Shown here piece by piece: positions 13,375-62,206 of a stretch of 64,000 nt of DNA (positions within the stretch are counted from its first letter, which is position 1; each line of letters starts with the position of its first letter). Below the pieces are notes generated by a model. The model had not been told where the DNA came from and did not search any database. It saw nothing but the letters and a program-made list of their open reading frames with translations. The translations under genes were made by a program, and so were the position numbers. The DNA comes from Apostichopus japonicus (taxonomy: Eukaryota; Echinodermata; Holothuroidea; Aspidochirotida; Stichopodidae), in the NCBI RefSeq assembly GCF_037975245.1, contig NC_092579.1:29166166-29230165 (forward strand). Reading direction: 5' to 3'.

Positions 13375-13419
<45 letters not shown>

Positions 13420-14247: not shown

Positions 14248-15783
14248 ATGGACGGAAAAGCTATTCGATTAAGCTGCAGGTTATTTTTCGTGGTCTTGGT
14301 AGGATTATCGTGCCAGGTGCAGTCTCAGTCATCTTCAATATCACTAAGTACTTCCCAGTTTACCAGCGGCAGTGATTCGATAGGTAAACCATTATAACGT
14401 ATCTTGATTTGTTGGAGTGTTACAACGTGTGCTTAAACAAGGTGAGAGAGTATATGCAGGGGGGACCTGCAAGGGCAATAACAAGGCCTACATGGGGCGG
14501 GGGGCAGCAAGGCGGATCCAGGATTTCCAAATGTAGGGACAGGAATCTGAGGTCGTTGAAGCCACATCTTACAGTGGGTCCTATATACGACAGCATGAAA
14601 CCCACAATTTTAGATATTAAATGTTGCATTGTGAGGCATATTTTAGGCTATTATTTTTTTGGGCTACAACTAGGTCTACACGAAATAGGTTCTGCTAGCC
14701 TAAGAAATCAGTAAAGACATGGAGTCGTATCTCATCCGCCTTCACATCAGGGCCATTGGATCAGGGCCTTAATAGCCCTTTCGTCTGAAATCCTATTGAC
14801 TTTGTGAACACTTAGGTTTGCTCAAACAATTAGGTATACCATACTATACAAAAAGTGTTGAAACTTGAACATTCCTTAGAAACTAGATCTTTCGTATGGA
14901 ATTCTATTGCTTTGTAAACATATAGGTTTGCTCTAAACAATTAGATGTTATACGATAGCCTATACAAAGTGTTGAAACTTTAGCAATCCTTGTTGCGTCT
15001 TTCCTAAATGCAGGTGTTGACTGCATCTTTCAATTGGCAGTAATTTCGTCATCTTTTGATACTATATCTCCTCTTCGGTAAATCCTGGAGCCTCCAATAA
15101 AGTGCATGCTTAGTAGATACATCACCCCCCCCCCCCCCATTGGGGTGTAAAATGCTGTTAAAGCTTGAAAAAATGTATTCAGTGGAGTTTACTCTATAGA
15201 ATATATGCAAGCATGTATAATTTATGAGTTATGATAAATTAATGCATTGATATCCGCATGCTCTAAATATGGAAAGTATGAAGTGTATAATGACCCATAT
15301 GTAAAATTGTGAAATGTATGTAGCTTTGATTCAGAAGAGTTCAACACTTCCAGCGAGTGTGTCCGATATAATACAGTACCTCCTCTCTCTCATGCAGTAC
15401 TTCGTGCGTGTTCCACCAAATTATATTTGTTGAAATTAACTATATATACGAGATTTATAAAGGATTTGTCATACTTGCATGTTATTATCTTGTGCACCTT
15501 TCCCTGTCGGTTGTTTTATGATTCCCAGCTGACTACCCTTGTAGCTTCAGGGGGAATTATATTCTTCATGGACAGCATTATGATTTGGATTCGTGTACGG
15601 CGTGTCTTTGTTATAATGGATCAATTACGTGTACTATTGAAGGTTGTCCTCGGTTACAATGTGACGAAGTTTCGGTCCTACCAGGCATATGCTGTCCCAA
15701 TTGCATATACAGTAAGATGACGTCTAATACCATATATAGACTGATATGGATGTGTTTAACTTAATATAGGCTAATATTAAAGT

Positions 15784-15833
<50 letters not shown>

Positions 15834-18800
15834 GAACATCTATACCTATATGGATGTGTTAAACGTATAGCATTAAGCTCTTTACCCATATGTATATCTT
15901 TGACATCTAAGGCCTAGGATTCATATATATGTTTACATAAAATATTTACCTCTTTACATACATGGATGTGTTTAACACGTAGTATTAACCTTTAAACCAG
16001 GGTTTACCTAACTTTATCCCCCCCCCCACGAACCCCCTGTGGATGTCAGACTTGTCCACGAACCGCCAACTTTTCGAGACACGATCTGAGTCATTATTAT
16101 ACTATAACACGCAGAACAGTGCTTCGTAAAAGATCAAGTTCATAGTGTAATTTTGTAATGGAAAAAAAAACAAGAGATGAAAAAGTATTTATTTGGAAAC
16201 GTTAAGATTAGATCAGCGCTTTATCTTCACGAAGTACTGTCATGCGTACATCAACTTCACCAAGTCATGCGGCCTGTATCTCTTTCATAATTCAGTTATT
16301 TATCACCTGCACGGTATACGGTACTACTATGGCAACATAATGTATGCGTATGGAACGCGAAAAGAGTTTGTCCATAGGTGTGACTTTTGTACATTACTAA
16401 ATTATATATGATATATCAGATTTTAGTACAACAAAAAGTACTCTAGTTTTGACTTCTACAGGCGTGAGTCCATCCCAGGGGGTTCATGTACCCCAGTTAG
16501 GGAACCCCTGCTTTACACCGATATGGATGTGTTTAACACGTATTACTAACCTCTTGACATATAGGGATATATGCTTAACATATAGTATTAACCTCTTCAC
16601 ATGGAGATGTTTAGTATATAGTACTAACCTCTGTAACAATAAGAATGTGTTTAACATATATAATTAAGCTCTATACCTATATGGATGTGTTTAACATATA
16701 TAACCTATTCTCTTATATGGATGTGCTCATATATATTATTATCCTCTTTACCATATAACTATAGAAATGGTCGTTATCAGTACACAGATTTTGGACTTTA
16801 CCTGTAGACACCGGAAAAATAGAAACAAAAGGTATTGTCGATTCTCCCTGGACATCTCAGTGCAAACGTCGTATACTAGTACAGATGTCATGGGCGTGAA
16901 TCTTTGGAAACTCAGCGCCTGGATAAGTACGAACGCGGATGGAAATGGAACGAAATATGATTTGAATGATAACATATTCAGTGAACAATATGCAGCAAAG
17001 CCATTCAAATTAAACCACTATCCACCTTGGCAATGGAAGAAATTGTTTAACAATATGACATTGAGAGGAGGCCCATGTGATCAATGCAGATACATGTGTG
17101 TTGAATTTGGTCTGGCAGATGACCCAAGGCCACTTGAATACCTACCTTTTACCTTTCAACCTGTAAACTTCGAAACGGAGAGATTAGTTGATTGTGTATC
17201 CCTTTCAAAACGCGAAGGTGTGTATCATAATTAAAGAAATTAATTTGTAACCTCTTGTTGACTGTGAATTGTTTTCATTCATGGTTGTTATGTGGTTGAA
17301 CATATACCATTAAATTACCTCAGACATCGTTATGCAAGTCTCTTTCTTGTTATTTCTTTTTCGTAAGGGGATGGGGGAGTGGTGGTTGTGGGGGGGGGGT
17401 TGCTGGTGGAGATTAAGAAAACTGTCATCAAGCTTAAATTAAAATGAAATCGAGAAAAATTAAATTGAAGATTTTTTTTCTTTATAACATATCTCTTCTG
17501 CAGTTATGGGAAAACAAATATTAAACAATTTATTTTTACGTTTATTTCACATTGAATCGAAGGTATTGGCTGTACCTACAAAGGAATTTCTTTCCATGAC
17601 AAAACGGTGATTCGTCCTGGTAATTGTACAGAATGTATGTGTTTGGATGCATGGTTTCGTCAACTGCACCAAAGAAAACTGTGATGGAGGAACAGATGTA
17701 CCAGAAGAGTATTATCCATCCTATAGGCCTACCCAGAGTAAGTTGAAACACCCGTTTCTCATAGATTGTACGTTACTGAACGAGTATCACATATAGCCAG
17801 TAATTATATACATTAAAGAAGTACCATATAGTATAATACATTAAGAAAGCCGGTCTTGTATATGTGCACGATTCCTATATCAATCAGTTGAGAAACTTAG
17901 TACGTGGATAAAAGACACAGCATTACAATAAACAGAATTCGAATTAATTTTATAGTGAATAATATTTTGCTTTAGTTCTTGGATATCTTGAAAGTCGATT
18001 TCAGCAGATTTATTGAATGTAAACACAAGATTATAGCGACTGATCATGGGAAAACGCGAAGGTGAGGACATAATTAAAGAAATTAAATTGTAACCTCTTG
18101 TTGACTGTTAACTGCTTTCATTCATGGTAGTTGTGCGGTTGAACGTAAACCATTGAATAACCTAAGATTTCGTTATACAAGTCTCTTTATTGTTATTTAT
18201 TTTTTTCGTATGGAGATGGGGTGGGGAGGGTGGGGGGGGTGTTGGTGGTGGGGATTAATACATGATATGACTCAATTCTTAAGAAAGCTGTCATCAAGCT
18301 CAAATGAAAATGAAATCGAGAAAATTAAATCCAAGATTTTGTTTTCATTATAACATACTTATCTCTTCTGCAGTTATTGGAAAACACAAAATTTAAAAAC
18401 AATTTGAAATGATTCTAATTTGTATTTCATATGGAATTGAAGGTGCAGGTATTGGCTGTGCCTACGAAGGAATTTCTTTCCATGACAAAACGGTGAATCG
18501 TCCTAATAATTGTACAGAATGTATGTGTTTGAATGGTACAGTCAACTGCACCAAGGAAATTTGTGACGTAGGAACAGATGTACCAGAAGAGTATTATCCA
18601 TCCCATAGGCCTACCCAGAGTAAGTTGAAACACCCGTTACTCATAGACTGCACGTTACTGAACGAGTATCACCTTTATAGCCAGTAATAGAAGTACCGTA
18701 CCGTATATATATATATATAATGCATTAAGAAAGTAGGTCTTATAATGTGCACGATTCCTATATCAATCAGTTGTGAAACTTAGCACATGAATAAATGACA

Positions 18801-20040: not shown

Positions 20041-20092
20041 TATATCTATATATAAATAAATACATATATATATATATATATATATATCTAGA
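20041..20092. repeat. TA microsatellite at the 5' junction of the Penelope-like element
   Basis: TA dinucleotides run up to the truncated 5' end of the retroelement. A second, longer TA tract begins at the 3' end (about 21095), so the element sits within a TA repeat. Confidence 0.8.
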
Positions 20093-20893
20093 ATGGTTGG
20101 TTCCAGCGATACTGACACTATCGCCACTTCCGTTTTCCGTAAGAAAACATTTACAGGGTTGTTCATTAATTGGAAATCCTGGTGCCCCAAAAAGTATAAA
20201 ATTGCGGTTATTAAGGCTTTGCATGAACGCGCACGTAGATTGTGTTCACCGGATTCCTTGTTCGTTCATGAATTGCAATTTATTAAACGCATTTTGACTT
20301 TAAATGGTTACCCTAGGAAGTTGTTGCATGAAATGGAGAGCTATACTTCTAAATTAAGAGAACAGCTGGGCATGGGTCCTGTAATTAAATTTGATCATGG
20401 GGAGACTAAAGAAAATACGGTTTTTGTTAAATTACCATACTGTGGCCCCAGCAGTGTTAAACTCGCTAAGACTTTAGGAAGTTACATTAAAGGGTTTTGT
20501 GATGACAATACTCATATCAAAATAATTTTTCTGCAAAATAAAATTGCAACTTTGTTCAGTTTCAAGGATGCTTATAAGTTAGATTATGCCAACAATGTTG
20601 TATATAGGATAAACTGCCCAGACTGTGATTCCTTTTATGTCGGGGAAACCAATAGACGGCTTAAAGATAGATTCAAAGAACATCTGATGAGCTCTTTTTG
20701 TGGTCAGAAAGGCGCTATTAACCTTTATTGTACTGCGCACATACATAATCTGCCTACTTTTCTTGACCATTGTGCCGCTATTGGTAATGAACCCCAGTGG
20801 TTCAGGAGGAAGATTAAAGAGAGTGTCCTAATAAAAGACTTAAATGCTGGCTTAAATAGAAACGTAGCAAGCTACGGGTTGGAGCTATTCTAA
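20093..20893 (+). mobile_element. Penelope-like retroelement ORF, 5'-truncated (thumb plus GIY-YIG)
   Basis: This uninterrupted 266-codon frame begins with residues typical of the end of a Penelope-type reverse transcriptase (TSVFRKKTFTGLFINW at about 12-27; then YKIAVIKALHERARRLCS). It ends with a GIY-YIG endonuclease module (VVYRINCPDC, YVGETNRRLKDRFKEH at about 168-199). The palm with its catalytic aspartates is missing, so the copy cannot retrotranspose alone. The intact frame suggests recent insertion or selection. The assigned start codon is simply the first ATG and is not the element's native start. Confidence 0.88.
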
Positions 20894-29277: not shown

Positions 29278-32200
29278 ATGTCAGGTTTTGCTCTGGTGGA
29301 TTCCATCAAAGTCCTCACACAGACAGGGGAGTGTGAAATACAACTATGTCTCGGAGATATCACCAGACTGGCACTGAAAGATAAGGTTGATGTCGTTATG
29401 GTCTCAGCATTTGCAGGTGGGTAACATTCATTTGATTGGATTATGATAGTATGTATCGTGATCCTATGTTGCCACTTTCTCCTCTTCCCCAGTAGTTGTA
29501 AAATACAGGGTTAACTTCACATATAAGTTTAAAAACAAAAAAATTCCTTTTTACACATATTGATACACCGACATAAATAAGGTGGTAACTGAACTAGGAA
29601 GAAGCTTATGCCTGGACACTTACACTCTAAAGACAGTTGGTTGAAAAAAAGTTTGGAACATGTGTAATGTTTCTCATACTTTTGTGAACACCATATCGCT
29701 GCATTTGGTTAAGTAATGTGTCTAGCTATTACCACGGTTTGAACCTCAAAGGCTGCATAAACATTCGTGAAATGCTAAATTGTTACGCATACGACAATTG
29801 GCCATGTCTACATCATTGCAAAAGACTTGCTCCCTATTTTGTTGCCAACAAGACCACAAATGGATTACAGGTGCGGCAATTCAGGCAAATTAAACGATGA
29901 AATCAGCGTAATCGTCCAGAACGTCATGGCAGAAACTGAATTCAACACCATACTGACAGACTGGAGGATGGATGAACTAATGAAGCCATTTGAAGGTATA
30001 TACATTAGTGTCTCGGCGTCGATGAAATATCATATTTACTACTCGTCAATCGTCCACTTGATAGGTATAGCTTAGCCTATGTAGGCATTGCTATTGTTGA
30101 AGATAGAAAGGCTATAGGCATACGGAATATATGAATATAGGAAGAGGTTATAAAGACATTCAGTTACAGTTAAATGCTATCGAGTATCACAATTCTGACA
30201 TTGTGGTAACCTATACAGCTAAGTGCAGTTCATCATTTGAAAAACCACTGCACACTAAACATATGCCTAGTAACTAGGCTACGTGATACTAACAGTTCCT
30301 TCACATTAGGCTACAGCCATGGGCTTCAAAACTAAATCGAGAGTCTACTCTGGAGTCTGGTTAGGCCTAACAGAACTACAGTAGTTTCCTTATGAATGAT
30401 GGGTTTCTTGGGTCTGAGGTCATCCAAAGAACACATTATGATGGGTGTCTTGGGTCTGAGGTCGTTCATACACATTGTGATGGGTTTCTTGGGTACAGGT
30501 ATAATACAGGAATGTTTCCCTATTGTGGGAAATATACATAAAAATAATGTTTTTGCAGAATTTTTTTTTACATAGAAAAACTATAGAATTTTTAAATTTT
30601 TTTTTTCAGGAGGCAACCCAGCAAATGGTGGAGAAAGCAAACAATATTGAAACAGGTCAGTCATGAGTCATACCCCACTTTAGAATAGAGAATGCTTTGT
30701 AGTAACAAACAGCAAGGAATTTAAATACAATACAATCTAATAAATGTATGTTAATATTCTTTCTATTGCCACCGAAAATATGCCATTGCCTTGTGACTTC
30801 TATACCAAACTTGTATCTCCTATCGGAAAAATAATCATGTTTCCGCTTTTAATTAAAACTTGTAAAATATTTTAAGCTGAAACTTAAGCTTAAGTGTGAT
30901 TTAGAATTGATTTTTATGGTATTTTCTTCGTTTCCTTTTGTTCTAATTCACAGAATGACAAATTGTGTCGCGGGAGAATCTATGCCAAAAGTGGACCCTA
31001 GTCGTTCTTTTTAATCCTCTGGGATCTAATGTGCAAACAACACGTGCAATATTTCATGTCGGATGGACTACCAGCTCTGACTGTGCCATTCCTGCTCAGT
31101 GCATGCAGTAGATATACCCGCTGTAAGCTACATACATTATGGACATGAACTTCCAGGCAGATCTTTGATTGAATTTTTGCTATATTTTGTTGTGAAAATG
31201 GATTCGGATGATACAGTGATTGAATTTAACACCATTCATAACTCATCCGATCAAACTGTTTGCAGTGTTGAAGCTATGCTGGAATCATACCATCTTTTGT
31301 TCAGCTTCAAAACAATTTCAGGAGGAAATACACTATTTCTCAATCAGAATGGTTCTTGTACGCAGATTCTTTTTATTCTTGAAATGAATAGCGACAGCAT
31401 TGCAAAGGCACTTGTTTGGGACGTAAATTCAAGCCTGGTTACTTGCTTCCAGTACTATATGTGCCATTGTGTGCAGGACTTGTGTGAACAAGCAATTAGT
31501 TGTGACAGGGTGCTTGAAGGGCTGTGGTAATACTTCAGTGGTTATAGACAACTTGTTGCAGGCTGTTAAGGATAGATACCGATAGTCTAATGGGACTACA
31601 AGAGCATTTACTCGTTTCAAGTATCTTAGCTTAGAGAATAATCATTACTTTTGTCACTGAGGTCATTAGAAAGAATGAGTAATAGCTGGTATATCAAAGT
31701 AGCCAACCGTGATTGCTACATTGATATACCAGCGGCCATATCATGTCAGTGAGTCGCTGGCATAGCTCGGCTCATTTGGTGGTTATATTACTTCAGTGTG
31801 ACCAAAATGAGGTACGTTTTTTTGGCTAAGTCTGCATGCAGACCAGTACCTTCCGTGGCAATACCAATTGGGTAGTGTAAGCCTCTTCCTTAATCCATGC
31901 AACTCTTGATTGTTTAATATAAGAGTGGCATAGTTTTCTTTGAAATTAAAGAAAAAGTGCTTATGGTTCGTATTTCCTGAATGCCCACCAATGCCCACCA
32001 ATCCTGTAGAAGAAATTGTTGTATTTTCTTTCTGCATTTCACCATGAAAAATATAATCCTTTATCAGTATTAATTAAAGGGCTCATTGGTTTGTTTTTGT
32101 GTATGTTTGTTGTTGGTATTAAAGGTAAGGAAGGGTCATTATGTAGCTGGGACAAAGAGAGTTCATTTTTCCAGATCAGCTTTTGTGGAAAAGAAAAAGA

Positions 32201-35200
32201 ATGTTTATAGCGCATAAATGACAATTATCGCTTTCTCCCGTTTCTTCTTTCCTATCGCCACTCCTGTCACTTAAAACTCATATCCCATGATATTAATAGC
32301 TAAAATACTGACAATTTTCCAATATGTCTTGTTTCTTCATATTTTCAGGGGATTACACCCCCACGTCCACATCTCTCATCGGAGCTCTCCAGCGTAACCT
32401 GAGCCTGAGTGTGCGTAATCTGGCACGGGACAAAGAGGAAGACCTGAGACAGCTGTATAGTTGCTGGTGGTCGAAGCCTCTACCAGAAAACATTCCCTAC
32501 AAGAAATTACTTTGCTTTGAAACTAAGATGTTAGTATTATTCACATTTCCATAAAGCCATAAAGGCTGGTTATGCTGTATAATGTTCCTGTTCTCACAGG
32601 GTGCACATGAAAGCCTTAACAGCAGTTGTACCGTATGATCTTCAATTGAAATTTGCGACATATTTTGTCTTTGAAGTTCTACGATATTCCTGTCTGTGCA
32701 CTGCAAAGCTCTGTACAGTAGGTAAATCTGTGCAAAATTGCCCGTTTGTTTCAAATTGAATGATTAGTATTGATGGCTAGATTCAGTTCCACAAATTCAA
32801 AGTTTGCAGTCTTTTGTGAAAATGTCCAAAAACCGTGTTTAGTACAAATTTAATACAAGTACCCAAAAGTGATATAATCAAGATCAAACTCTTAAGTACT
32901 CAGATGGGTTATAATTTGAATGATGCAAATATTTCCAACTTTTGAAGCTCTCTGATGATTGAAATTGCTGCTAATGTAGTTCATGGTATACAACAACCCA
33001 AATATACTCCATGCTACCACGCACCACCATAGCCGCCCAATCCCACTGCACCATACCCATACCATATTCCCATCTCATCCCTGCCCCCCCACTTATTGTA
33101 TTCTCACCCTCCCATGCCATATCCCCATTCCATCTCTGACCAATAGTGTATGAAGTAGTGTAGTGGTTCAGAAGATAGAAAATTCTATATTGGAGGCTGG
33201 AAAAAAGTAGAGCGTATTTCTCTTCACCCTTGCGTGATTCCTTTTTGCTATTATTTTTGATTGGTATCATATTTACATTCATGTTTCAATGGATGTGTTA
33301 TGTCAGCCTCCTCACAGGGTAAGGGAGACACCTCTGCAGTGGGTTAGCAAGAGCTGAAGGAGGAGAGGGAGTCTGCCCACCTGACCCCAACCCACCCCTT
33401 ACCCAACCCCCTCTTTACAGCTGCACAGTTTGGTACAAACTGTTTATATCGAATTTAAATATTTATGGATGCCCCTTTTATTTTCTTACAGGATGTCTCA
33501 GTCGCCACCTCAAGAGATGGTTGGGGATGCATTCAGGTGTCTGGTCCCTGTCCTTAAGAATGAAGATGGCTCTGTTATAACATCACTGCTGAATACAGGA
33601 AACCAGGTATTGGAACATGAGTATTTATCCTACTGTATGTAACAAAAAACAAATTATATTCCTATATAAAAACTGAGAAAAAAGATTTGTCAAGTTTTCA
33701 AATAGTTGTTAGTACTAAAATCTGAATTTGGTAATTGAAAAGAAAGACAGAAAATAATTTTTTTCTTTTTTTTTAATGTTAATATATTTTAGTCCTCTAT
33801 TTGTTCATCATCAATTAAGATTCAATTTCTTTAACATCCTTGTTGTTTATTGAAGGTTTTTTTGTTGTTGTTGCTGAACTTGTCATTTTTCTGAAATATA
33901 TTTTCTTTTGAAGGGTTATGGCAAAGAAGTGATGCTCAAAGGAATGGTGGAGGCCGCTGTACATTGGATGAAAGCAGGACTACCCTTGAGAATGCTGAAG
34001 ATTGTTCTGTTTTGTCCGAGAGTTGAAGGTGATTCGAGAAAGGTTGCTGATAAGAATGGTTACAAGTACACATTGGAGACGTTCAGTAAACTGAAAGAGA
34101 AATATGACATGCAGTACATGATGCCAAAGGTAAGAGTAACATTACAAGATGTGTTGTGGGTATAAGGTTCGGATGGTGGTGAACAAAAGTTGTTCAGGTA
34201 AAATATTTTTGTCGTCATGTGAGGGCCCAAAACTGGGTCTTTCTATAAAGTTAATATCAGTTATTACAAAATGTAGTCAAAGTCACATATCGACTTGTGA
34301 TTTCTGCTCTTTAACGTTCTGTGTGGTAGGTCGATTGTAAGCACGTTGCAGGTCATTCCATTCTGGTATGGGTGCAATTTTAATGAGGAAATTTGGGTCA
34401 GCACAACTCAAATGATATCCACAACATTTCAGCAGATTTAGCAGAGGAATACTTGTTTTAGGTTTCGTTCTATTTTTGCATGAAATGAAAATTACAAGGG
34501 GGGATACCTGTCGGCTCTTTGTTCTTGCAATGGGGTATTGTTTATCCCTAGAAATAATTACAACGATCTGTTGCATAAAATAAGTCTATGACAGTGTTTC
34601 CAAACAAGGAAATGGCAGGAAAGAAAATGACACCGTTATCCTGCCTATATCTTGTATTTTTCACACAAACAAATGGATAAACTGCTCAGGAATCTCACCA
34701 ATCAATTTTAACAAATTTGCAAAACAGAAGCGTAGCTGACCTTCTGCGGCTCTGCTGCCCTTGTTTTCAATAATTACAATGTTCATTAATGTAAAGCTCT
34801 TACTTTTGGGTTCTGCATCTACAAATCCTCTGTTACAGCTTGTTATGAATTTATCAGTACCTAACAATACTTTTCCTGTAATAAAATGTCACAGAGGGAT
34901 TAAGTGCACACTATTTGGACTTTAAGTAGGATATCGATTTATCTCTTTACATTGACACTGTTGTTTTTTTATCATTTCCTTTTCTATTCAGGAAGTTCCA
35001 GTGGAGTATGATTTCTACCTATCGTACAGCGAGACTGACACGAGCATCGTGGAGGCCATCGTGGAGAAACTGAAAACGAACAAGACAGACGTCCGCATCT
35101 TCAGAAAGCAACAGCAACTGGACAAGGATGCCTATTGGCAGGAAGATATGTATGAGGTCATGATGAAGAGTTCCAGGGTCATTACAGGTCAGCATGAGCA

Positions 35201-38200
35201 GATCTAACATATCATCAAAAGATTTCTTACTTGAAACCTGTCGTAGGAAGCAGTTACATCACCTTTACTTGTGTTGCTTCATCATACCAAATGATATAGT
35301 GGTCTACATTTTGCAAGAAGAGGAAGTCATGGGTGGTTAATTGCAGGAAGGTCAAAGGTTATGTGCGTGGGAGTAATTTGAATTGAAACTCAACTAAGGG
35401 TGCTTGCCTCAATATCTCAATCACTAACCACTGCAATACATTTCAATCTTCAATTGTATATTGGTAGAGGAAATTATAGTAACAACACAGGTCTTCTGTG
35501 ACATCTGGACTTCAAGAACCTTGGCACTGTAAAAGGGGGTGTGAGGGGTGGGGGGACCCCAGCTTCCCCTATATATGAAATAATGTGCCAAATAGTTAGG
35601 AAAATCCTAATTATAGCAAAAAGAAATGTTCACATCTTCCCCGAGTGTATATATGGCTGAGTAGACCTTGTCCAAAATACCGCAGAGACAGGTGTTATCA
35701 GTGTTTTCATTTGTTAACAATTGATAGTCCATGATATTATTCCAATGGACATATACATAGACATGTTTTAGACAAGCCTGCCATTTTAGTGGGTTTGAAA
35801 ATGATGTTACTTTATATTTCGCACAAAACTGTTATTGATCGCAAAGCTACATAGCTAGCCAGCTACTTAACACTTAAACTGTGCATTCCTTTCGTGGTGA
35901 TGACTCATTGTTTAATTTGACATATTACAGTGTTGAGTCCTAACTACATGCAGTCGACAGCTTGCATCGAGCAGTACAACATCGCCCTCTGTTGTAATCG
36001 TAATGCGCATCGTGATATGCTAGCCCCATTCTATGTGATTACCATAACCAACATGCCGACGTACATGGGTCTGGTACAGTACATTGATTGTAGGTAAGTC
36101 AATGTACATACTTTCCAATTTCTATATATGGGAAGTTGCTCTCTTTCTCATTATTACTGTCGCAGTGATGTCTGTTAAAACTGTGGCAGGATCTTTGGTA
36201 TGTGTGTGTGTGTGATTGGGGAGGAGCAAGGAGTTGCCACTAACTCCCTCCCTTCCTCCCCAATTCCTTTGTACCTCCCCATCTTTCTCCCTGTTATTGA
36301 TCATCACTTTGCAAATTTAAAGAATTGAATGAGTCCAGATGAAATATCTATGGATTCTTTACAACCCCTCATGAACAAACTCACCCCTCTTTAAATGGAT
36401 AAAAAAGACTTGAGGCTTACAAACAGATGGTTAATCAAACTGTTAGCAGATCATTCATAAATACCAAATGCCTCCTGTAGCACACATGAAAATAACTTTT
36501 TCCAAGTCCTTTCATTGCTGTTTTATTAGTTTTGTTTATTGATTGTATATTTATTAATTGCTATCTATGTTTCTTGTTGTTATTAGATCAAATTTTGCAG
36601 AATCAGTCAACAGCGCCTGTTACCAGATCATCATCTCACTGTCCATCAACTTTACGAGAGAGTTGTCCGTCATGAATGCCAGCGTGATTCGCTACGACCT
36701 CTTCCTCTCCTATTGTCACAAAGAGACAGATCTAGCGCAGAAGATGGTTAAGATCTTGCAAGACTTGAATCCAAACTTAAAAATATTCTTTGATGTACAA
36801 GAGCTGAAGACAGGTGAGGCCTGATTGGATAGATTTGGTCATCAATTATGGCCAGAAATTTGTGAAAAGAACAGGCTAGCTTCGATCCCAGGGCATCAAG
36901 ACTTGTTTTCAAAACATTTGCTAGTTTCTTTGGTTTGTCTGTATTTTGGAGGGATCTAAACTTTTGGCTTATCAAAACATAGATGAAGAAATATAGAAAT
37001 GAGGGAAAAGATTTTCTTGTTTCAGCTTAGCTGTTACCCGATTTATATGAAAGTATAAGAAGTGTGAGCTGTACACCAGCTTTAGACTGGTGTTGATATA
37101 ATCAGACTGGTGTTGATATAATCAGACTGGTGTTGATGTAATCAGACTGGTGTTGAAATAGTCAGACTGGTGTTGATATAATCAGGCTGGTGTTGATATA
37201 ATCGGACTGGTGTTGATATAATCAGACTGGTGTTGATATAATCGGACTGGTGTTGATATAATCGGACTGGTGTTGATATAATCGGACTGGTGTTGATATA
37301 ATCAGACTGGTGTTGAAATAATCAGACTGGTGTTGATATAATCAAGACTGGTGTTGATTTTAATCAGACTGGTGTTGATATATTCAGACTGGTGTTGATA
37401 TAATCAGACTAGTGTTAATATAATCAAAAGCAGGGTTGATATAATCAGAAGCAGGGTTGATATAATCAGAAGCAGGGTTGATATAATCAGACTAGTATTA
37501 ATTATCAGACTGGTGTTGATATAATCAGATTGGTGTTAATATAATCAAAAGCAGGGTTGATATAATCAGACTGGTGTTGATATAATCAGAAGCAGGATAG
37601 ATATAATCAGAAGCAGGATTGATATAATCAGACAGGAGTTGATTTAATCATACTGGTGTTGATATAATCAGACTAGTGTTAATATAATCAAAAGCAGGGT
37701 TGATATAATCAAAAGCAGGGTTGATATAATCAGAAGCAGGGTTGATATAATCAGAAGCAGGGTTGATATAACCATGCCAACCAGGCTTGTGGGAAGTAAC
37801 ACATTCCTCTTGGAAGCCACCAGGGCAAAACATCAAGAAATAGAATATAAAACTAAGAACAAAGTAAAATAACAAAATATATTTATTAAAACAAGAAAAG
37901 AACCCTCATTAATACAACAAAAAATAAAAAACATAAGCAGATGGTTTAACATTTTTTAATTGCAAAATTACCCTTAATTATGAAGTATTAAAAGTGTTTG
38001 GATGTAACTGTCCACTTTGCAAAAACAGTGGGAAAACCAGTGGTAATAGCAAACAATGTAGGAAAAAACTTCAGACAGTTGCTTTGTCCAATCCTCTCTA
38101 GAAATTGTTTTGTGACTCCAACTGACCATATACAACTCTTATTTTCAAGTCTAAAGCCTTTGAAAATGACAGAGAAGATTTTAAAGTTATATGTCAATGT

Positions 38201-41200
38201 TTTAGCTGTACGAATGAAACCACATTGGCTTGTTAAAGGGACCATGTTGACATTGTAAATTTGCAGTTCTCATAATAACACACTTTCCACTTTTCTTGTA
38301 AAAAAATAGGTAAATCCTGGCAGAGGGCGCTGTACCATTCCATCGATGGTTCCAGGTGTCTGGTAGCTCTGATGACCAATAACTACATCAAGTCCGCCGT
38401 GTGCCAGGAAGAGTTTAACCTAGCGATGTTGAAACATTATGCAAAGGTAAGAGGACCACGAGGTTCCTCCAAGCCTCAAATTCCTGAATTCCATTATAAG
38501 CACTCAGTCGGTGTGGACACATAGACTACCACCCAGTCACATTAATATTAAGAGGTTCCTCCTTCACCAAGGAATCATTTATCCAGTATCGCAATGCAAA
38601 AATTGCTACCCAAGTACAAAGGTGTATAGCAGATGTATAGCAGTTGTAACGCAGGAACCATAGACAAATTCCAGAGCCCTCAAAAAGTGCTACACAAAGT
38701 TTGAACGACAATTTATTCCCAGTTCATAGATTCCATTCCTTCACAAACCATGAACAAATTTTAATATAGAGTGCAAAACAGTGAAGAAGAGTTTGTGAAC
38801 ACACACACCAATTACAAAAGTTGAGAGTGGTAGTGTTTAATATTCATGACACTGAACTTTTGCAATTCCTCTTTGCCTAGCTCTTTATCATCTCTACATG
38901 CATGCAAATAGGCTTGTACTGTATCATGGACAATAAATGTGCATTGGTCATAGTCGTGTGTTATCACTAATCCTACACTAGATAAACACAGAAGTGTTTC
39001 ATGTCTTGGTAAGTGTTACTCGTGGTGAAAATGACTTGATGTGACAGATTTAGCGTTTAACACAATTATGGTTTTCATCATATAATCTTTGGTCAAATAA
39101 ATACAGCAAATTTTTACCAATGTACGAATGCAAAATAGGTGTTTTTTTTTTAGTTTGTCATAAATTTACATTTAATTGCAATCATAACCACACACTTAGA
39201 GGTTTGTCATCAACATTGGACTTAATCAAGTTGTTTCACTTCATACAAATAAATTGGTTGGGGAGAGGGTCTAGGATTTGGGGATTGAGTGAGTAAAACG
39301 GGCGTGTATGTATCCTGTGGTGGTTTAGCTGGGTGTTTATCTTTTTACTTTATTCAAGTAGAAGAAAACATAGATGTTTAATAAAATGTTGCTATCTTCT
39401 TTATGGATTGGAATGGCATGGATGTCAATGTAAAGTAGCAAAGACAATACTCCAGAATGGAAATATTATTGCATCCCCAGCATACCTGGACTTGTGATCT
39501 AAGGATTGCTGGTTGGAATCGCAGCCAAATTGTTGTCCTTTGGGTAGGCACTTAATCTCAGTCATTTGCCTCACTTAAGCCTGGTGCATAAGTTATCATC
39601 TCCAAGGGAAAGCCTAGATGTAGCACATTGTAGTGCCAACAGAAAGAACTGTTGATTGAACACACTTTGGTGTGTGGGTGTGACCAGTTACCTGGCATTA
39701 TTAACTGCTGTATAAATGGGTGAGAAGGCTTGGGCCTTGCTACAAGACTGTAAACCTACAACTTTACCTTTCTTGACCTCCTGTTTTCATTTCTGATTTT
39801 ATTTTTATTTATATCTTGCCTACTCAACACAGACAAATCATTTGCAGTTAATACCCTTTGTTGTGGAGAAAATTGACTACCTTCCTACCGGCTATGAAAA
39901 AGTCCCTCAGTTAACAACAGATTCCGATCACTTTGAAGAAGATGCGGGGAAACTCTGCTCCTCTCTTGTAAAGTGGCTGGAGACAGGCAAGCTAGAGGAA
40001 GACTCCCTGAATTCTTCGGTTTTTCAAGATTTCAAGGTGAGGAAACACATTGCTTGTACTTCATAAAGTATGTATATATATATATATATTGTTTTTCCCT
40101 TTTTTTTTCTTTCTTCATAATAACAATAGATTAGAGCTTGATGTGTCACTGTTAGTAGTTTCCATTCATCTTTTACCTGCTTCCTCATAATTATTGCATA
40201 GTTGGCTGTACAAGGCCTCTAAATTTGGGCTATTTACTGGCTAGATGCCAGTGAGTTTTCCTCCAAAGATGTACAAATTTTGATCTGTAGTGGTAACAAT
40301 ATTGAAATAACTGCAAATTTGTGCTCTCTATCATTTAATTTATGACATCATTTAAGTGGGTGAAAAATGTTCAATTGTAAAAATAGCAAAATTAAATGGT
40401 TATTAAAATGGGTAAGAGCTAAAAAATAAGAAATAAATACCCCCCTCACCTATTTTATTTTCAATATTTGATAAACATTTTCCATAACTGTACAAAGTTT
40501 TGTCTTTTGTTCAATAACCCAGAAGCTGAACTACACGAACTAAAGTGTTGCATCCCTTTTATCCTGCAGTAAATGTCTTGAGACCCTCAGCAATAAGAAT
40601 CAAACTGTTGCTTTCCTTAATGCCCTGTAGTAAATGTCTTGAGACCCTCAACATTAAGAATCAAAGTGTTGTTTCCTATATGCCTTGCAGTAAATGTCTT
40701 GAGACCCTCAACTATAACAACTAAAGTGTTGCTTTTCTTTATGCCCTGCAGTGAATGTCCTGAGACCCTCAACTATAACAAATAAAGTGTTGCTTCCTTT
40801 ATGCCCTGCAGTGAATGTCCTGAGACCCTTAACTGTAACAACTAAAGTGTTGCTTTTCTTTATGCCCTGCAGTGAATGTCCTGAGACCCTCAACTATAAC
40901 AAATAAAGTGTTGCTTCCTTTATCCCCTGCAGTGAATGTCCTGAGACCCTCAACTATAACAACTTAAGTGTTGCTTCCTTTATGCCCTGCAGTAAATGTC
41001 TTGAGACCCTCAACAATAAGAATCAAAGTGTTGCCCCTTTATGCCCTGCAGTAAATGTCTTGATACCCTCAACTATAACACCTAAAGTGTTGATATCCTT
41101 AATACCCTGCAGTAAATGTCCTGAGACCCTCAACAATAACAACTAAAGTGTCGCTTTCCTTTATGCCCTGCAGTAAATGTCCTGAGACCCTCAACAATAA

Positions 41201-44200
41201 CAACTAAAGTGTTGCTTTCCTTTAATTATACACTGCATTAAATGTCTTGAGACCCTCAACTATAACAAATAAAGTATTGCTTTCCTTTATGCCCTGCAGT
41301 AAATGTCCTGAGACCCTCAAAGATCATCCTTTAGCATTTTTTTTTCCAGTTACAGAGGAATTGTTTCTTCCCTGAATGTTGTTAAAGTCATGTCATATTT
41401 TCATATCATAACTATGCGGATCCTGTAGAGTATTAATTATAACCTGCTAGTCAACCTTTGGTTAGGAGAGATGCAGAAAGATGGTATGTTTAATATGGTA
41501 AACACAATACTTGGTATATTAAAGCAGTTAAGGGTTAGGGGTTCTGTTTGCAAGAGAATGTATCCTGCCCTGTAATATTGATGCAGAAATATTACTTTAG
41601 ATATTAAACTTAAGCCATGTCAAAGTCTGTTAATTTTTGCAGGACGAAAAACTTATCATTTAACCGACATGTACAACACTGTGTAGTTATTGTACCCAGG
41701 CTTGATCATGTGTTATAAAAGTCTGGGCTAAAGTTGTTGCTGTCATAAGCTATCTTATATAAGAACCTTGGAATGGCACCATTTTTGTCAACAGGAATTT
41801 ACCTGTTAACGTTTGCACAGAATAAATGCTCTGGTGATGTTTTGTGAATAGTGTATGGATCTCCACTGTAATAATAAAATTGCCAGCAACTGCTTTAAAA
41901 GGAATGGTCCTAATTGAATGACAGGAACAGCGAGAAGATGAGCAAACAGAGCTGAGGAGATAATTAGATTTTCTCCGTTCCACTTTGTTTGTCTGCTTGT
42001 AAAGGAATGGTTGCTATGGAGGAACACTTGACTACGGAACATCCCAATTCAATTTTTTTGTTCTGTTTTGAAGAATGGGAAAGCACATTAGGCTGCATAG
42101 TACAGATTTCTGACTACCTATGTTGTCTAGACTAGAGAAAGTGTGCAATAGAGTTAGTATGCTCAGCAGAGTTTGAGACAGAAAGGAAGAACATTTGTAA
42201 TGTGGGGAGGCGATCACAGGGGTAAGGAGCTGGGATGGAGAGGTACTGTCTGTTTCTTTCATTTGTCATTGTATTCACAATGTCCTATTGTTGAGACAAC
42301 ACAGGAGTTAATGGTTTCATTGCTATTTTGCTTTAAAGCCAAGTTGGTTTTAGCGGCTCCTTCCCCTCTCCTATCCCCATCATGTTGCTTCCCAGGTGAC
42401 ACTGAGTAGCAAAGAGTTAGGCACAATACTGTTTAAATAGTAAACACTGATTCATCTTGGTCAATTCCATATTTATCAGTAGTTTTAGTTTTGAATTAGT
42501 GATTTACCTGTGTTTTGTAACTTAAAGGCTTTTGCTTCCACATCTTGTATGAACATTGTGTTGTGTTAAAGGGCACATTAAACGGCTCAAGCAGGAGTCA
42601 ATTTACAAGTTTAGATGAACATCAAGAATGACGTATAAATAGCACTGCTTAAACATGAAACTTTTAACCACAAAGTGAATTTCTTTCCCATCAGGACAGT
42701 AAAGTGGAGATCACAGAGGAGTGGGAAAGACTACGGAGGAATCAGTTTGAGGACAATTTCCAGAACTCCTCTGCGACGTTCCCTCCTCCATTAACGGACG
42801 CCTTCAAGGAGGAGAAGAAATCTGGCGAAGACATCGACGTGGTCTTGAGTTACAATCAGCACGACAAGAAGTACGCAGACTTTATGATCCGCCTCTTGAG
42901 ACACTCTGCTCCCGGTTTAAACGTGCAAGCCAAAGGTCAAACCGAGCAAGAGAGGTTGATGAAGATCGAAGAAGGCAAGAAAGTAGTTCCACTCTTATCT
43001 CCTAACTACATCGAGTCACCAGAACAAGTGGAAGAGTTGCACATCGCTATATGGAGAGCGAGGACGTTGACTAACCTCATCTTCCCTGTTCACCTGCATC
43101 AGCTTCCCCCGAGGCCAGCGTATTTTCACCTCCTGCCCTGTCAAGTCAACCTACAGGACCATCTGTGGTCGGAATTAGCACTAAAACAGGGAGTGAGCCT
43201 ACCAGCAGACGTCTACAAGGTTGTGAAAGAGTTGGTGAAACCCTCCGAAGGGTTGGCCTTGTACGCAGCCGTTTACTATCTGCTCGAAACCATCAAGAAA
43301 GACATGTAAGTCAGTTTGCTGCAAAAACTGTCATTGCAAACTTAAGATTTGCACGACAGTGATGCAGTAACAATGGGGAAGATGTTACTCAGCTGTGTCC
43401 GGAGATGTTGGTTATTTTATCACATGGGTCAATAGGGATCATGGGTTAATTCCTCCATTAAGGATTTTACACTTTGCTGTGTACAAAAATATTTGTGTGT
43501 TGGAAACACAATTCTACTGCCCTTTGTAGCCCATTTTGAACCCTCTTTGATGGTGGACTTGCTCCTTGATTAATTGAGTATTAATATCTCGTAGCATAAA
43601 ATGATCTACTCTCTGAAGTTCTCCTGTTATGGCTCAAATGGTCGAAACTCATCCAAAGAAAGAGCTCTCCAACTTTCAATTTTTCCCTTGTTTGAATTAC
43701 AGCTTATGATCTTATATAAGTAAATAAACAATCGAATACTAACTGATAACACATCCCTGATAACACAATATGTAAGGTATGTTCTGTGTCTTCTGACTGG
43801 CACCCTCAATAAAGAAATTTGGTGTATATGGCTCATCACAGACTAAGGGCTAGATATCTCAGTTGGTTAAAACACAGGGCTTGTTGAACCTAGATCACTG
43901 GTTAAAATGGTGTTCTAGACAAAAAAAATTCTCTGTTCCTGTTTCATTTCATATCATTTACTTTTCCAGAGCAAAGTAGAATATAGACATATAATTTGAT
44001 AAAGTTTAAAGACAGAGCATGCCTTTTTGTGAAAGGAAGTGTCTAAGAAGCCTCATGGCTTAACAAACGTAGAACTATTAAGAGGGTAAGAGGGAAAAAT
44101 CAAGGAAACCAGAGAAAAAAGAATAGGAACATATTAACAAAAATGAGTGTACTTGTGTATACACACTTTACAGAATGCATGGACACAAATAATATTTGAT

Positions 44201-45538
44201 GGCAAATAACCAACTTGAACACTAAAACTTGTCATGATAAATATAATCAATTACAAACTACATACCTATATCTTACCGAAGAAAGAAAAACTAGAAATCC
44301 TAGATGATTTGCTTAACAACCCATTTCTTAATAGATGAGGTAGATGGAGAAGGGCAATGTTTCTTTTAGCGATGGAGATTCCAGACATTTATAGCATGGT
44401 TTCTTTGTAAGCTTAGTGATAACAGTGTATATACCTTTTCCCTTATAAACTTTATTCATTGTCTTTATTATTTTATAACCTCTGCTGGCTTTTTTTTCTC
44501 AAATGTCGAGTCACCTCAATTTACATGTCTTAGGCTTCAATGTTCCCAGCTTTTGATCTGCTTTCATTTGTCTTGTATTGCCTTTTTCATTTTACAGGGC
44601 TGAAAACCTCCAACCTTCTAAATCTCCCAGACCAGCTTTGCTGAATATTTTCCATCTGGACGGAGCCAGCGGTGAGGTTAGTTTAAACAAATAACTGAAT
44701 TCTCCTCTCGCAACCCCTCTAGCAACTGGTGGTATCGCAGTTCATCCAGTCAATTAATGTTGGATATTTATGCGGGATTTATACTCATTATTTTCTTAAT
44801 TTCAAATATGGATATTCCAGACCTCCCCTCACTCCCAAAAAATAATAATAATTGAAAATGACATGGAGTTAACAAAAATGAAAGATCTAATAGCTGTGTT
44901 TAGAGGTATTGGGAAAGACATCACCCCAACTTTCTGTTTTAAATGGCTGCTTAAAGGATAGAAAGTTGTGCAGTTGTTTTCCTCTGCCAGCCCCCTTATC
45001 CCCTCTATGTATATTCTATTAACCATGAGGCATAATAGCCGACATAAAAGAATTGAAGAGAGTTATACTGATTTTCTTATATGTAAAGCTAATCAAAGTC
45101 TTTCCCTGTTTCTAGAGGGACGATTCAGAAGGTAATGAGACAAATAATTCCAACAATGCATCATCACATGCAAACAGTGCACCATCTGACATAGCTGAGA
45201 CCAATCTAGATGAGTCAAAGGGTGTGTCAGAGGTCAGCAGTGAAGAGGATAAAGGTCAGGGTGAGATGAAAGGTCAGGATGAGGTCAATGGCCATGAAGA
45301 GGTGAAGGATGAAGATGAGGTCGTTGGTCAAGATGACAATGGTCAGGATCAGGGAAAGGATCAAGAAGAGATCAAGACACCGTCTGATGAGATTGGAGCT
45401 CAAGACGGAGACAGAGTTGTCGACAAAGGGAGTGGCTCTGGTCAAAACGAAACTTCTGACAGTAAAGATGTTGTCGAGGAGAGCAGTGAGCAAACGACAG
45501 AAGGTGAGAAGAGAAGTAAGATGTGTCATATTTTTTAA
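29278..45538 (+). CDS. Macro-like domain plus three TIR domains, predicted 896-residue protein
   Basis: Twelve exons join in phase: 29278-29416, 32349-32529, 33492-33606, 33914-34129, 34992-35187, 35931-36093, 36587-36813, 38310-38446, 39833-40036, 42695-43305, 44598-44676 and 45116-45538. The ATG at 29278 follows an in-frame TGA (29257). Residues 1-215 resemble a macro-domain fold (GDITRLALKDKVDVVMVSAF; later LLNTGNQGYGKE). Three TIR domains follow: TIR1 about 221-345 (YDFYLSYS, VLSPNYMQS), TIR2 about 372-505 (YDLFLSYC) and TIR3 about 572-735 (DVVLSYN, LLSPNYIES, coded in one exon). The tail (757-896) is acidic, rich in G, Q, D and E. No signal peptide or membrane helix is seen, so a cytosolic protein is expected. 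TIR domains either scaffold signalling or hydrolyse NAD+; macro domains bind ADP-ribose-type ligands. A link between the two here is inference. The 3' end is less certain because GT donors at 45504 and 45516 could extend the gene. Confidence 0.85.
29860..29995 (+). CDS. Candidate SAM-like first coding exon inside intron 1 of the TIR gene
   Basis: An ATG at 29926 opens 23 codons reading MAETEFNTILTDWRMDEL and so on, then a GTATAT donor at 29996. The pattern (hydrophobic, W, MDEL, PFE) resembles the start of SAM-type domains. An AG lies just before 29870. No following exon in matching phase was found: joining to the acceptor at 30609 gives an early stop. It could be an alternative first exon, a nested gene start, or an exon relic. 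Confidence 0.3.
31099..31530 (+). other. Unrecognised 143-codon open frame in intron 1 of the TIR gene
   Basis: This is the longest intronic open frame that is not simple repeat. It is rich in Cys and Ser near the end (YYMCHCVQDLCEQAISC) and has no family resemblance I recognise. No promoter or splice signals were tied to it. It could be a decayed mobile-element fragment or chance. Confidence 0.2.
37083..37780 (+). repeat. Minisatellite of about 20-bp units in intron 7 of the TIR gene
   Basis: About 34 head-to-tail units of 'cagactggtgttgatataat', with a second variant 'cagaagcagggttgatataat' taking over in the right half. Mixed blocks of the two variants suggest expansion by slippage or unequal exchange. 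Confidence 0.9.
39465..39745 (+). mobile_element. tRNA-derived SINE remnant in intron 8 of the TIR gene
   Basis: A degraded tRNA head (ggacttgtgatctaaggatt, then ctggttggaatcgcagcc as a B box) is followed by a body with 'ttgtcctttgggtaggcact' and a tail 'ctgtataaatgggtgagaa'. I recognise this arrangement as typical of marine deuterostome SINEs. It is plus-oriented, like the gene. Confidence 0.6.
40530..41320 (+). repeat. Minisatellite of 13 units of about 61 bp in intron 9
   Basis: Units share 'tgcagtaaatgtcctgagac', 'cctcaactataacaactaaa' and 'gtgttgctttcctttatgcc'. Counting the junction 'cctgcagt' and close variants gives 13 units (for example at about 40565, 40744, 40866, 41047, 41169 and 41294). 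The array ends about 1.4 kb before exon 10. Confidence 0.9.
43843..43925 (+). mobile_element. Degenerate tRNA-derived SINE head in intron 10
   Basis: The sequence gctagatatctcagttggtt followed by aaaacacagggcttgttgaa and cactggttaaaatgg follows the order of a tRNA-type A box, anticodon region and B box (GGTTaaAAT for GGTTCGAAT). It is heavily mutated. Confidence 0.4.
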
Positions 45539-54738: not shown

Positions 54739-56284
54739 TCAAGCTTTAGGCTGCGTCATGGCCATATTGTCGATGCCTTCCTTGGTGTCATACTCATCCC
54801 TTTCACGTTGTCTTGCTCTCACTGTTGTTACAACAACCTTAATGACAAGGAAAACGGCTGCGAGACAGACTAGGCATACTGAGATGATACTGTTCCTGTC
54901 TTCTTTGTCCCAGTTGTTAACGATCACACCACAAAGGGCCCAAATGAGCACTGGCCATGGCGCGAAGAACCAACGAAGATGTTTCTCGAGTGACGTCACC
55001 TCGAGCAGGAAATACCCGACAGCAATAGCAGCTAAGATACACAATGAAATGGTACAAGATGTGTCCTGATCTTGACCTTGGAAGTAAACGAGCACGATGG
55101 AGAGGTTGATCATGGTGGCCACTGTGGTCCAGGTAGCGTAGACTCCGAGACCGTTGAGAAGAAAGAGACGGGTGAAGAACAGGTATTTCCTGAAGCAGAA
55201 GAGGTAAGACAAGGGTTTAACATCGGTCTATATGAGTCAAGGGTGAGGGAGGTATAGGTGTACATCTTGGTCGAGAACAATTAGTCTAGGCTAAACTAAG
55301 GAGAAGTGTCCCACTGTCTACCCCACACCGCTATGCCAGCAGTAGGCTTATGACGATGCCTATGGAAGTGCTATCCAATAACGTGTATCAAAAGTGTTTT
55401 GCACGCGAATTTGATGTATATGAAAGTTGCCTATGTAAACATTTGTTTACACCGATCATGAAATACGTTACAGACAGTAACTAGATCTTCATGACGTATA
55501 TCGACAGTTAATTAATCGTGAATGCTCGTGACGTCATGCTTTTTCTATCGTAACGTCAGCCTTACTTTAAGCGGCAACGTATTGTATTTTTCTCGGCAAT
55601 TTAACCGTTGACACGCACGCGCGACATTATTCGTCCAAATGACGTCATACTATAAGAAACATTCTTACCTGCCACGAGGTCCTGTTAGCTGGTACCGGTA
55701 AAGACTGGTCATCCAACAAAGATGGCCGATACAGATGAAAAGCGTTATTGCTATGGTCGATATAACGACGAGAGCCCAGACCAATTCCTCTCGATCGAAG
55801 AGAAACAACCATGTGATATTCACGCAGAGGTTGAGGGAGTACACTGATAACAGTACAGGGGAAATAATGGGGGGATCGGCGTATATCGGCGCTCCGTGAT
55901 CACTCTTTACGCAGATGATCACATGGGCGTAGACTATCCACACCAATTGCCAGACATAAATTACACCCCAGATGATGAAGGTAAATCCAGCTGGATTGAT
56001 GTTTGTGTCATAGTTGTCGGATGTTCCTCCAGTGGTTCCAGTAAACCATGCTGTGGATATGGAGGAAAAACGGTTTATGTATAGATCATATATAATTAAG
56101 TATTGTTTAAATGTATTAGTGCGATATCCGTTAAAGATTTAGGGAAGGTTAGGTGGGTGAACATCATAAGGATGCGGTGTGGTGGTCGGGGTGTTTAAGC
56201 AGCACATGGGAGGGGATGGGTACCTTGCTTTTGTATTTGAGCAATACATACATATTAATATATTTATATATATGTGTGTATATG

Positions 56285-60750: not shown

Positions 60751-62124
60751 TCAAGCTTTAGGCTGCGTCATGGCCATATTGTTGATGCCTTCCTTGGTGT
60801 CATACTCATCCCTCTCACGTTGTCTTGCTTTCACTGTTGTTACAACAATCTTAATGACAAGGAAAACGGCTGCGAGACAGACTAGGCATACTGAGATGAT
60901 ACTGTTCCTGTCTTCTTTGTCCCAGTTGTTAACGATCACACCGCAAAGGGCCCAAATGAGCGCTGGCCAGGGCGTGAAGAGCCAACGAAGATGTTTCTCG
61001 AGTGACGTCACCTCGAGCAGGAAATATCCGATAGCAATAGCAGCTAAGATACACAATGAAATGGTGCAAGATGTGTCCTGATCTTGACCTTGGAAGTAAA
61101 CGAGCACGATGGAGAGGTTGATCATGGTGGCCACTGTGGTCCAGGTAGCGTAGACTCCGAGACCGTTGAGAAGAAAGAGACGGGTGAAGAACAGGTATTT
61201 CCTGAAACGGAAGAGGTAAGACAAGGGTTTAACATTGGTCTATATGAGTCAAGAGTGAGGGAGGTATAGGTGTACATGTTGGCCGAGAACAATTGGTCTA
61301 GGCTTAACTAAGGAGAAGTGTCCCACTATCTACCCAACACCGCTATGCCAGCAGTAGGCTTATGACAATGCCTATGGGAATTCTATCCAATAACGTGTAT
61401 CAAAAGTGTTTTTCACGCGAATTTGATGTATATGAAAGTTGCTTATGTAAACATTTGTTTACACCGATCATGAAATACGTTACAGACAGGAACTAGATCT
61501 TCATGACGTGTATCGACAGTTCATTAAGCGTGACTGTGAGTAACGTAATTGATGTTGATCGTGACGTCATGCTCATTGATTGTGACGCCATCCTTACTGT
61601 TAGTGGCAACGTCTTGTATTTACGAGGATTGCGGCAATTTATTTGACATGCACGCGCGACATTATACGTCACGTCACAAGCATGACAAACGTAAAGAAAC
61701 ATTCTTACCTGCCACGAGGTCCTGTAAGCTGGTACCGGTAAAGACTGGTCATCCAACAAAGATGACCGATACAGATGTAAAGCGTTATCACTATGGACGA
61801 TATAACGACGAGAGCCCAGACCATTTCCTCTCGATCGAAGAGAAACAACCATGTGATATTCACGCAGAGGTTGAGGGAGTACACTGATAACAGTACAGGG
61901 GAAATGATGGGGGGATCGGCGTATATCGGCGCTCCATGGTCACTCTTTACGCAGATGATCACATGGGCGTAGACTATCCACACCAATTGCCAAACATAAA
62001 TTACACCCCAGATGATAAAAGTAATTCCAGGTGGAGTGATGTTTGTGTAATACTTGTCGGATATCCCTTCAGTGGTTTGAGTAAACCATGCTGTGGAAAT
62101 GGAGGAAAAACGGTTAATGTATAG

Positions 62125-62206
<82 letters not shown>

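Follow-up and report, generated by a model that had tools for sequence, protein, structure and literature searches.

The 64,000-nt stretch of Apostichopus japonicus DNA analysed here (the window; NC_092579.1:29166166-29230165, on C19 of a genome of 671.6 Mb in 35 contigs) contains one real gene at positions 29278-45538 of the window (+ strand; such coordinates are window positions throughout) that encodes a macro domain followed by three TIR domains, TIR1, TIR2 and TIR3. Both domain types and their order are homologous to those of prokaryotic macro-TIR proteins, the three TIRs belong to the clade of TIRs carried by those proteins, and the arrangement is conserved in three copies. The protein, which is probably soluble, intracellular and of immune type, is a derived relative of a rare prokaryotic macro-TIR family and not a plain member, since it has three TIRs, the first with Gln at the catalytic position, whereas the family has a single TIR with Glu. 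The best overall explanation, to which we lend somewhat more credence than doubt, is descent from a macro-TIR protein with triplication of the TIR in the eukaryotic line, the macro domain acting as input and TIR2 as output.

Rebuilt from the sequence, the gene runs from an ATG at 29278 to a stop codon ending at 45538 and comprises 12 exons and 896 codons; all introns, the longest of which reach 2.9 kb, are GT..AG with compatible phases, giving one reading frame. The 12 phase-compatible exons placed here by the initial annotation, made from the letters alone, were thus reproduced in number and exact coordinates, and its three TIR units correspond to three stretches of the full-length protein matched by Pfam TIR_2 (overall 2.5e-43). 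The lack of LRR, Ig, death or membrane domains that it reported also holds, as the Pfam scan of the full-length protein returned no domain besides TIR_2 at E ≤0.1, and no membrane-type stretch is present (highest 19-residue Kyte-Doolittle mean, 1.14). Exon 11 (44598-44676, +), a short linker, and exon 12 (45116-45538, +), which encodes an acidic low-complexity C-terminal tail and the stop codon, are placed solely by their splice sites and the frame. The protein ends in CHIF, a sequence resembling a CaaX box. Equivalents of exons 11 and 12 were not recognised in either paralogue; read-through at the exon-10 donor leads to an immediate stop (KKDM and stop).

At least two further open copies with the same macro-TIR-TIR-TIR layout lie on C19, at ~2.125-2.133 Mb and ~16.082-16.091 Mb (copy counts in this genome being lower bounds). 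Exons 2-10 have the same phases in the window gene and both paralogues, and their lengths are identical for 8/9 exons between the paralogues and for 4/9 and 5/9 between the window gene and each of them. An open frame is maintained across 723-739 aligned codons, with pairwise identities among the three copies of 42, 45 and 61% for amino acids and of 33, 35 and 39% for four-fold sites (113, 117 and 164 sites). As the frame has stayed open through this divergence, we infer that selection has preserved it. A broken fourth copy (L022, C19 ~2094.5-2097.2 kb) contains in-frame stops in its exon 1 and exon 6 equivalents.

The N-terminal domain is spread over four + strand exons. Exon 1 (29278-29416) carries the start codon, the beginning of the domain and GDIT (G codon 29353-29355), and has counterparts in the paralogues at 2124.8 kb and 16081.7 kb of C19; exon 2 (32349-32529) contains the family motif DYTPTSTSLIGAL plus SCW; exon 3 (33492-33606) extends as far as the LLNTGNQ loop, and exon 4 (33914-34129) encodes the C-terminal part and a linker ending at residue 217. 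With a single animal N-terminus as query, nothing useful was obtained from Pfam, PADLOC, NCBIfam, the PDB, plasmids or viral contigs. Pfam Macro likewise matched none of three animal N-termini searched individually, and a profile built only from the three animal rows retrieved no macro protein from the PDB, only one chance-level match (0.7). A family profile of the domain built from 29 prokaryotic and three animal rows (A4) gave 28 PDB matches at E ≤10, the best being PARP14 (1.9e-4, the only one below 0.001) and the next MACROD2 (0.0048). All 28 are macro-domain proteins, counting seven viral polyprotein chains and 1spv, which we presume to be such. The full-length prokaryotic profile (A3) reached PARP14 at 6.9e-6 by way of its macro part. 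Alignment of the family profile with eight canonical bacterial macro domains by hhalign gave a probability of 96.0% (E 4.9e-9, 166 columns), as against at most 0.6% for 30 column-shuffled versions and 0.5 for a TIR profile; the canonical set comprised 9/11 loci (two lacked the motif), from which L116 was then removed because of a wrong frame. The Pfam Macro model matches 3/28 prokaryotic members, weakly (best 0.02), and a more distant relative, L114, at 0.015.

Residue conservation shows where this domain agrees with canonical macro domains and where it departs from them. In the 32 aligned rows the G of GDIT is invariant and the D is present in 30, and the G of the [TAS]GxQ loop is invariant with the Q present in 30. 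The place of canonical VNAANxxLxxGGGVxxAI is occupied by SAFxxDYxPTxxSLIGAL, so that PTxxSLIGAL stands for GGGVxxAI, and the MacroD-type hydrolase signature (the GGGVxxAI ribose loop with VNAAN), present in the canonical rows, is absent from the window domain. A canonical macro hydrolase is rejected in view of this replacement. The macro-like N-terminus of the initial annotation is therefore macro-type by profile, by its GD and by its [TAS]GxQ loop, but of a divergent kind. Three observations weigh against a conventional reading of the domain: the canonical GGG loop is missing, so that the ligand may differ from that of canonical macro domains; one of the two rows lacking the loop Gln is an animal paralogue; and the new profile did not match exon pieces from canonical macro loci of the host (L073-L078), which counts against close kinship. 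On balance we are highly confident that the N-terminus is a divergent domain of macro fold, and an ADP-ribose-type ligand for residues 1-217 would be the corresponding prediction.

Prokaryotic genomes were scanned with a DNA pattern for Y.PT..SLIGAL, the most family-like stretch of the N-terminus, which yielded 41 prokaryotic loci; 30 encode a relative (tblastn E ≤1e-3) and 11 do not. Best E values per relative, obtained in this small set, range from 4e-43 to 2e-12, with 29/30 at 9e-25 or better. The window macro domain is 35-44% identical to 28 of the 29 aligned prokaryotic rows and 26% identical to the remaining one (L038); it carries both the Y.PT..SLIGAL and the W.S motifs, and I57, G58, A59, L60, W86 and S88 are invariant in the family. 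Every complete prokaryotic member (28/28) consists of a macro-like domain followed by a C-terminal TIR (TIR_2 match) in an uninterrupted open reading frame (ORF), and the catalytic Glu of this TIR is invariant (28/28). From these data, homology of the window protein to the family is virtually certain. The initial annotation had found no recognised animal counterpart for the layout; the peculiar element here is the TIR triplication, but the macro-TIR join is common to all 28 complete prokaryotic relatives, which rules out a fusion confined to animals.

By record title, the 29 aligned members span nine phyla and include one methanogenic archaeon, many being metagenome bins; a Planctomycetes bin (L060) would add a tenth phylum by title, its frame breaking off within the domain. 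The macro-like domain is rare, with profile searches (up to eight candidates scored per genome) finding it in 1/398, 3/386 and 2/395 genomes of three phyla, seed genomes included. No macro-TIR protein besides those of the seed genomes, one per phylum, was found in the genomes sampled, the other three matches being DUF4145 proteins, and none was found in the viral contigs searched, where the single match sits in a stop-ridden frame. Profile search identified DUF4145 in place of the TIR in three more distant relatives, L111:1465-2589 (4.2e-7), L112:1423-2544 (1.8e-4, just under the Pfam cut-off) and L114:988-2070 (1.5e-5). Since the same macro-like part is joined either to DUF4145 or to a TIR, it looks like an exchangeable module, which suggests an input role for the macro domain.

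Genomic context was checked at eight loci, with nine neighbour ORFs picked by eye from 124 listed, plus the front of the L058 ORF. Defence-type neighbours at 4/8 loci are suggestive only: patatin, macro and TIR occupy one ORF with an adjoining subtilase gene in L058/L113 (Bacteroidota), a patatin gene follows macro-TIR in L059, L034 has a TIR-STING gene two genes further along, and a DUF4062-NACHT-WD40 gene immediately precedes macro-TIR in L037. No constant partner gene indicative of a single defence system was seen by eye in the neighbour lists of the eight loci, and none of the nine ORFs scanned, out of 124 listed, is ThsA-like. Pfam, NCBIfam and PADLOC yielded no dedicated model for the family, the matches of the first member falling within or close to its TIR part, nor was a description of a macro-TIR protein found in the literature searched, outside which most subscription papers fall. 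Two of the bacterial genomes are rich in TIRs, G001 (of L072) and G006 (of L046), with 46 and 43 TIR_2 matches, respectively.

The three TIRs of the window protein, encoded by exons 5-10 (all +), differ in their state of preservation. TIR1 begins at residue 218, with its first half in exon 5 (34992-35187), its second half, including Gln297 (CAG 35972-35974) at the catalytic position, in exon 6 (35931-36093), and its end in exon 7 (36587-36813), which continues through a linker into TIR2. The core of TIR2 with catalytic Glu447 (GAG 38411-38413) lies in exon 8 (38310-38446) and its C-terminal part in exon 9 (39833-40036), whereas TIR3 is contained entirely in exon 10 (42695-43305) and retains Glu640 (GAG 43034-43036). 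The respective TIR_2 E values of 3.5e-15, 1.2e-17 and 2.1e-7 correspond to 57, 64.9 and 31.9 bits (cut-off 28), as scored on a draft protein with slightly different junctions. In all three animal copies TIR1 has Gln at the catalytic position, and TIR2 and TIR3 have Glu; the segments of TIR2 are also of the usual length in every copy, and TIR3 lacks ~8 residues where the BB loop lies. With TIR1 devoid of the catalytic Glu and TIR3 of the BB-loop region, TIR2 alone looks like a normal enzyme and is the main NADase candidate, so that of the two enzyme candidates put forward in the initial annotation, TIR2 and TIR3, the former is retained and the latter loses ground.

Sequence comparison places these TIRs with the macro-linked prokaryotic ones. 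Window TIR1, TIR2 and TIR3 reach 112, 85 and 60 bits with their best match among 33 macro-linked bacterial TIR rows, compared with at most 40, 46 and 32 bits against 21 other bacterial TIRs and at most 24, 33 and 23 bits against eight of the host's own Toll-like TIRs. With every one of the nine animal TIRs, the best macro-linked TIR exceeds the best other bacterial or Toll-like one 1.7- to 2.8-fold in bits, the macro-linked pool being the larger (33 rows, six of them repeats). Profile scores of the nine animal TIRs follow the same trend, at 112-121 (TIR1), 99-105 (TIR2) and 38-47 (TIR3) for the macro-linked set and 43-56, 60-69 and 15-24 for the other bacterial set, a gap of about twofold for TIR1 and TIR3 and of 1.4- to 1.8-fold for TIR2. 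With TIR1 and TIR2 as queries, the best plasmid-borne TIR in 7.3 billion bases reached 38 and 44 bits. In a tree of nine animal, 32 macro-linked (26 independent, six repeat fetches), 21 other bacterial and three of the eight own Toll-like rows, which leaves out L036, L038, L042 and L060, animal and macro-linked TIRs stand apart from the other 24 rows with support of 98/96 (starred), and TIR2 joins TIR3 at 96/81 (starred). Descent from the host Toll-like TIRs compared is rejected by both bit scores and tree. A PF01582 search of the genome does not list the window gene, the TIRs of which are split by introns. A seven-locus TIR cluster elsewhere in the genome, at C9:23.38-23.80 Mb, with six loci in open frames of 702-1058 aa, probably consists of tandem Toll-like receptors. 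The gene may belong to the uncharacterised eukaryotic TIR clades 10-13, which PMC13142454 places in molluscs, arthropods and cnidarians among others, or to the architecturally diverse, mostly invertebrate TIR group 18 of PMC7075850.

How the gene reached the animal lineage depends on the weight given to these data. We regard transfer from prokaryotes as moderately probable relative to ancient shared inheritance. The route would be uptake of an intronless macro-TIR gene, followed by TIR triplication, intron gain and gene duplication; TIR1, TIR2 and TIR3 share no intron position, as if triplication preceded intron gain. Several points weigh against this. In the TIR tree the animal group (94/69) stands next to the prokaryotic macro-linked group (89/54) and not within it, both below the starred level, which lowers our estimate slightly; a program warning for that tree concerned long branches in the other bacterial set; the macro tree leaves undecided which prokaryotes are nearest; and, with trees that lack a root here and a sampling confined to prokaryotes and the host genome, the direction of transfer is deduced rather than proven. 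A gene inherited from an early eukaryotic ancestor and widely lost, with no later bacterial transfer, is accordingly a credible alternative that falls somewhat short of probable: the 12 exons and three diverged paralogues, with four-fold sites 33-39% identical, indicate age within the lineage, and neither the macro domains nor the TIRs of the animal nest inside one prokaryotic group, but such an origin fits poorly with a prokaryotic domain so rare and scattered, and the intron positions are those expected from intronless uptake. That adjacent macro and TIR genes were wrongly joined is extremely improbable. The model was built from sequence and spans introns of up to 2.9 kb, yet the join recurs in both paralogues, where exons 4 and 5 meet at the same point and in the same phase, and the 28 prokaryotic relatives carry it within single uninterrupted ORFs; with layout, phases and open frame repeated in the paralogues, chance joining of two genes is very unlikely.

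Regarding function, TIR2 as an NADase under macro-domain control is a tentative reading that we place just below probable, and the catalytic Glu, which by itself is no proof of NADase activity, tempers it. The ligand of the macro domain would be a nucleotide resembling ADP-ribose or some other NAD-metabolism product, and ligand binding or oligomerisation, by analogy with ThsA, would assemble chains, drive the TIRs together and release the activity of TIR2 as the NAD+-cleaving unit, the output being NAD+ loss and/or an ADP-ribose-type signal. TIR active sites form between neighbouring TIRs, as in SARM1 and AbTir. A live TIR2 flanked by two degenerate TIRs could thus constitute a preassembled site, in which TIR1, with Gln for Glu, and TIR3, devoid of the BB-loop region, may be built-in partners that complete or regulate a composite active site within the chain. 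If the three TIRs instead scaffold complexes as in MyD88/Toll pathways, with the macro domain recruiting them to ADP-ribosylated targets, the degeneration of TIR1 and TIR3 at catalytic or BB-loop positions would be accounted for, and PMC13142454 presents a mainly scaffolding role for the TIRs of Toll-like receptors and their adaptors; such a non-enzymatic adaptor is nevertheless unlikely, as TIR2 keeps its Glu and segment lengths in all three copies and the TIRs group with macro-linked bacterial TIRs (Glu in 28/28), not with the compared host Toll-like TIRs. A macro domain that removes or sequesters the TIR product to limit self-damage, instead of sensing, is more doubtful still. Many macro domains hydrolyse ADP-ribose derivatives, and those of TIR systems are predicted regulators, potentially targeting cADPR (PMC9503650); the loop bearing the canonical MacroD-type catalytic residues is, however, replaced here, and the domain is also joined to DUF4145 in place of the TIR, where no NAD product is expected. 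The fullest version of sensing through the macro domain, in which an animal lineage acquired a complete prokaryotic macro sensor and TIR NADase as a unit, triplicated the TIR and disabled two of the copies to obtain a one-chain preassembled TIR device, gated through a new macro pocket by an NAD-derived or ADP-ribose-type ligand and forming an immune pathway separate from those of Toll receptors, STING and SARM1, is speculative and on present evidence rather unlikely.

A known bacterial signalling logic pairs TIR NADases with macro nucleotide sensors, which in Thoeris reside in separate proteins. The one-chain macro-TIR layout, present in nine prokaryotic phyla by record title and in an intron-bearing animal gene with paralogues, suggests that a whole sensor-effector unit crossed between domains of life, and the layout hints at an NAD-based defence module common to microbes and an animal. 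The prokaryotic family is a candidate for phage defence. Two questions arise: what nucleotide is recognised by macro domains of this family, and whether active and inactive TIRs in tandem can substitute for TIR oligomerisation.

Elsewhere in the window, a 373-base unit is repeated six times head-to-tail at 11333-13431, each with a nearly identical short ORF. By eye, two near-identical ORF sets on the - strand (54742-56138 and 60754-62217) resemble multi-pass membrane proteins and are likely a recent tandem duplication, duplicated ORF sets at 1617-3648 and 15313-18684 (+) have cysteine-rich von Willebrand C-like stretches, and a 277-aa ORF at 20060-20890 (+) has a GIY-YIG-like stretch and is perhaps a Penelope-like element remnant.

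Among known systems, Toll-like receptors and MyD88 combine a Toll-type TIR with LRRs and a membrane helix or with a death domain, none of which accompanies the TIRs of the window protein. SARM1 carries ARM and SAM domains, whereas the window protein combines its macro domain with TIR2 and two degenerate TIRs. In the PDB, the prokaryotic family profile matched SARM1 weakly (3.8e-5), compared with 7.5e-16 for the best chain, a TLR (best 60 of 72 matches). The likeness lies in SARM1 being a TIR protein that acts inside animal cells, has bacterial-type ancestry and bears a catalytic Glu (PMC13142454). Dictyostelium TirBCD (PMC13142454) is another eukaryotic gene that goes back to a bacterial TIR immune protein; there the TIR of a TIR-STING protein moved without known regulatory domains, whereas the window gene keeps the two-domain layout. 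The macro domains of PARP14, MACROD and AF1521 share the fold by profile, the GD and the TG-type loop, and the window protein differs from them in having PTxxSLIGAL for the GGG loop and no ART domain. CARF-TIR Cat1 and TIR-STING join a nucleotide-sensing domain to a TIR effector, as may be the case here, with CARF or STING as the sensor there and a macro domain in the window protein. A parallel in logic is Thoeris with a TM-macro ThsA, in which a TIR makes an NAD-derived nucleotide that a macro domain reads, ThsA macro domains binding ADPR/IAD and oligomerising upon binding (PMC11204291). Thoeris relies on two proteins, a TIR sensor (ThsB) and a separate effector (ThsA) with its macro domain fused to membrane helices, whereas macro and TIR share a single chain in the window protein. 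The comparison with Thoeris, made in the initial annotation, is thus one of layout and logic, and a macro domain reading an NAD-derived signal offers a reasonable analogy for how the animal protein may operate.

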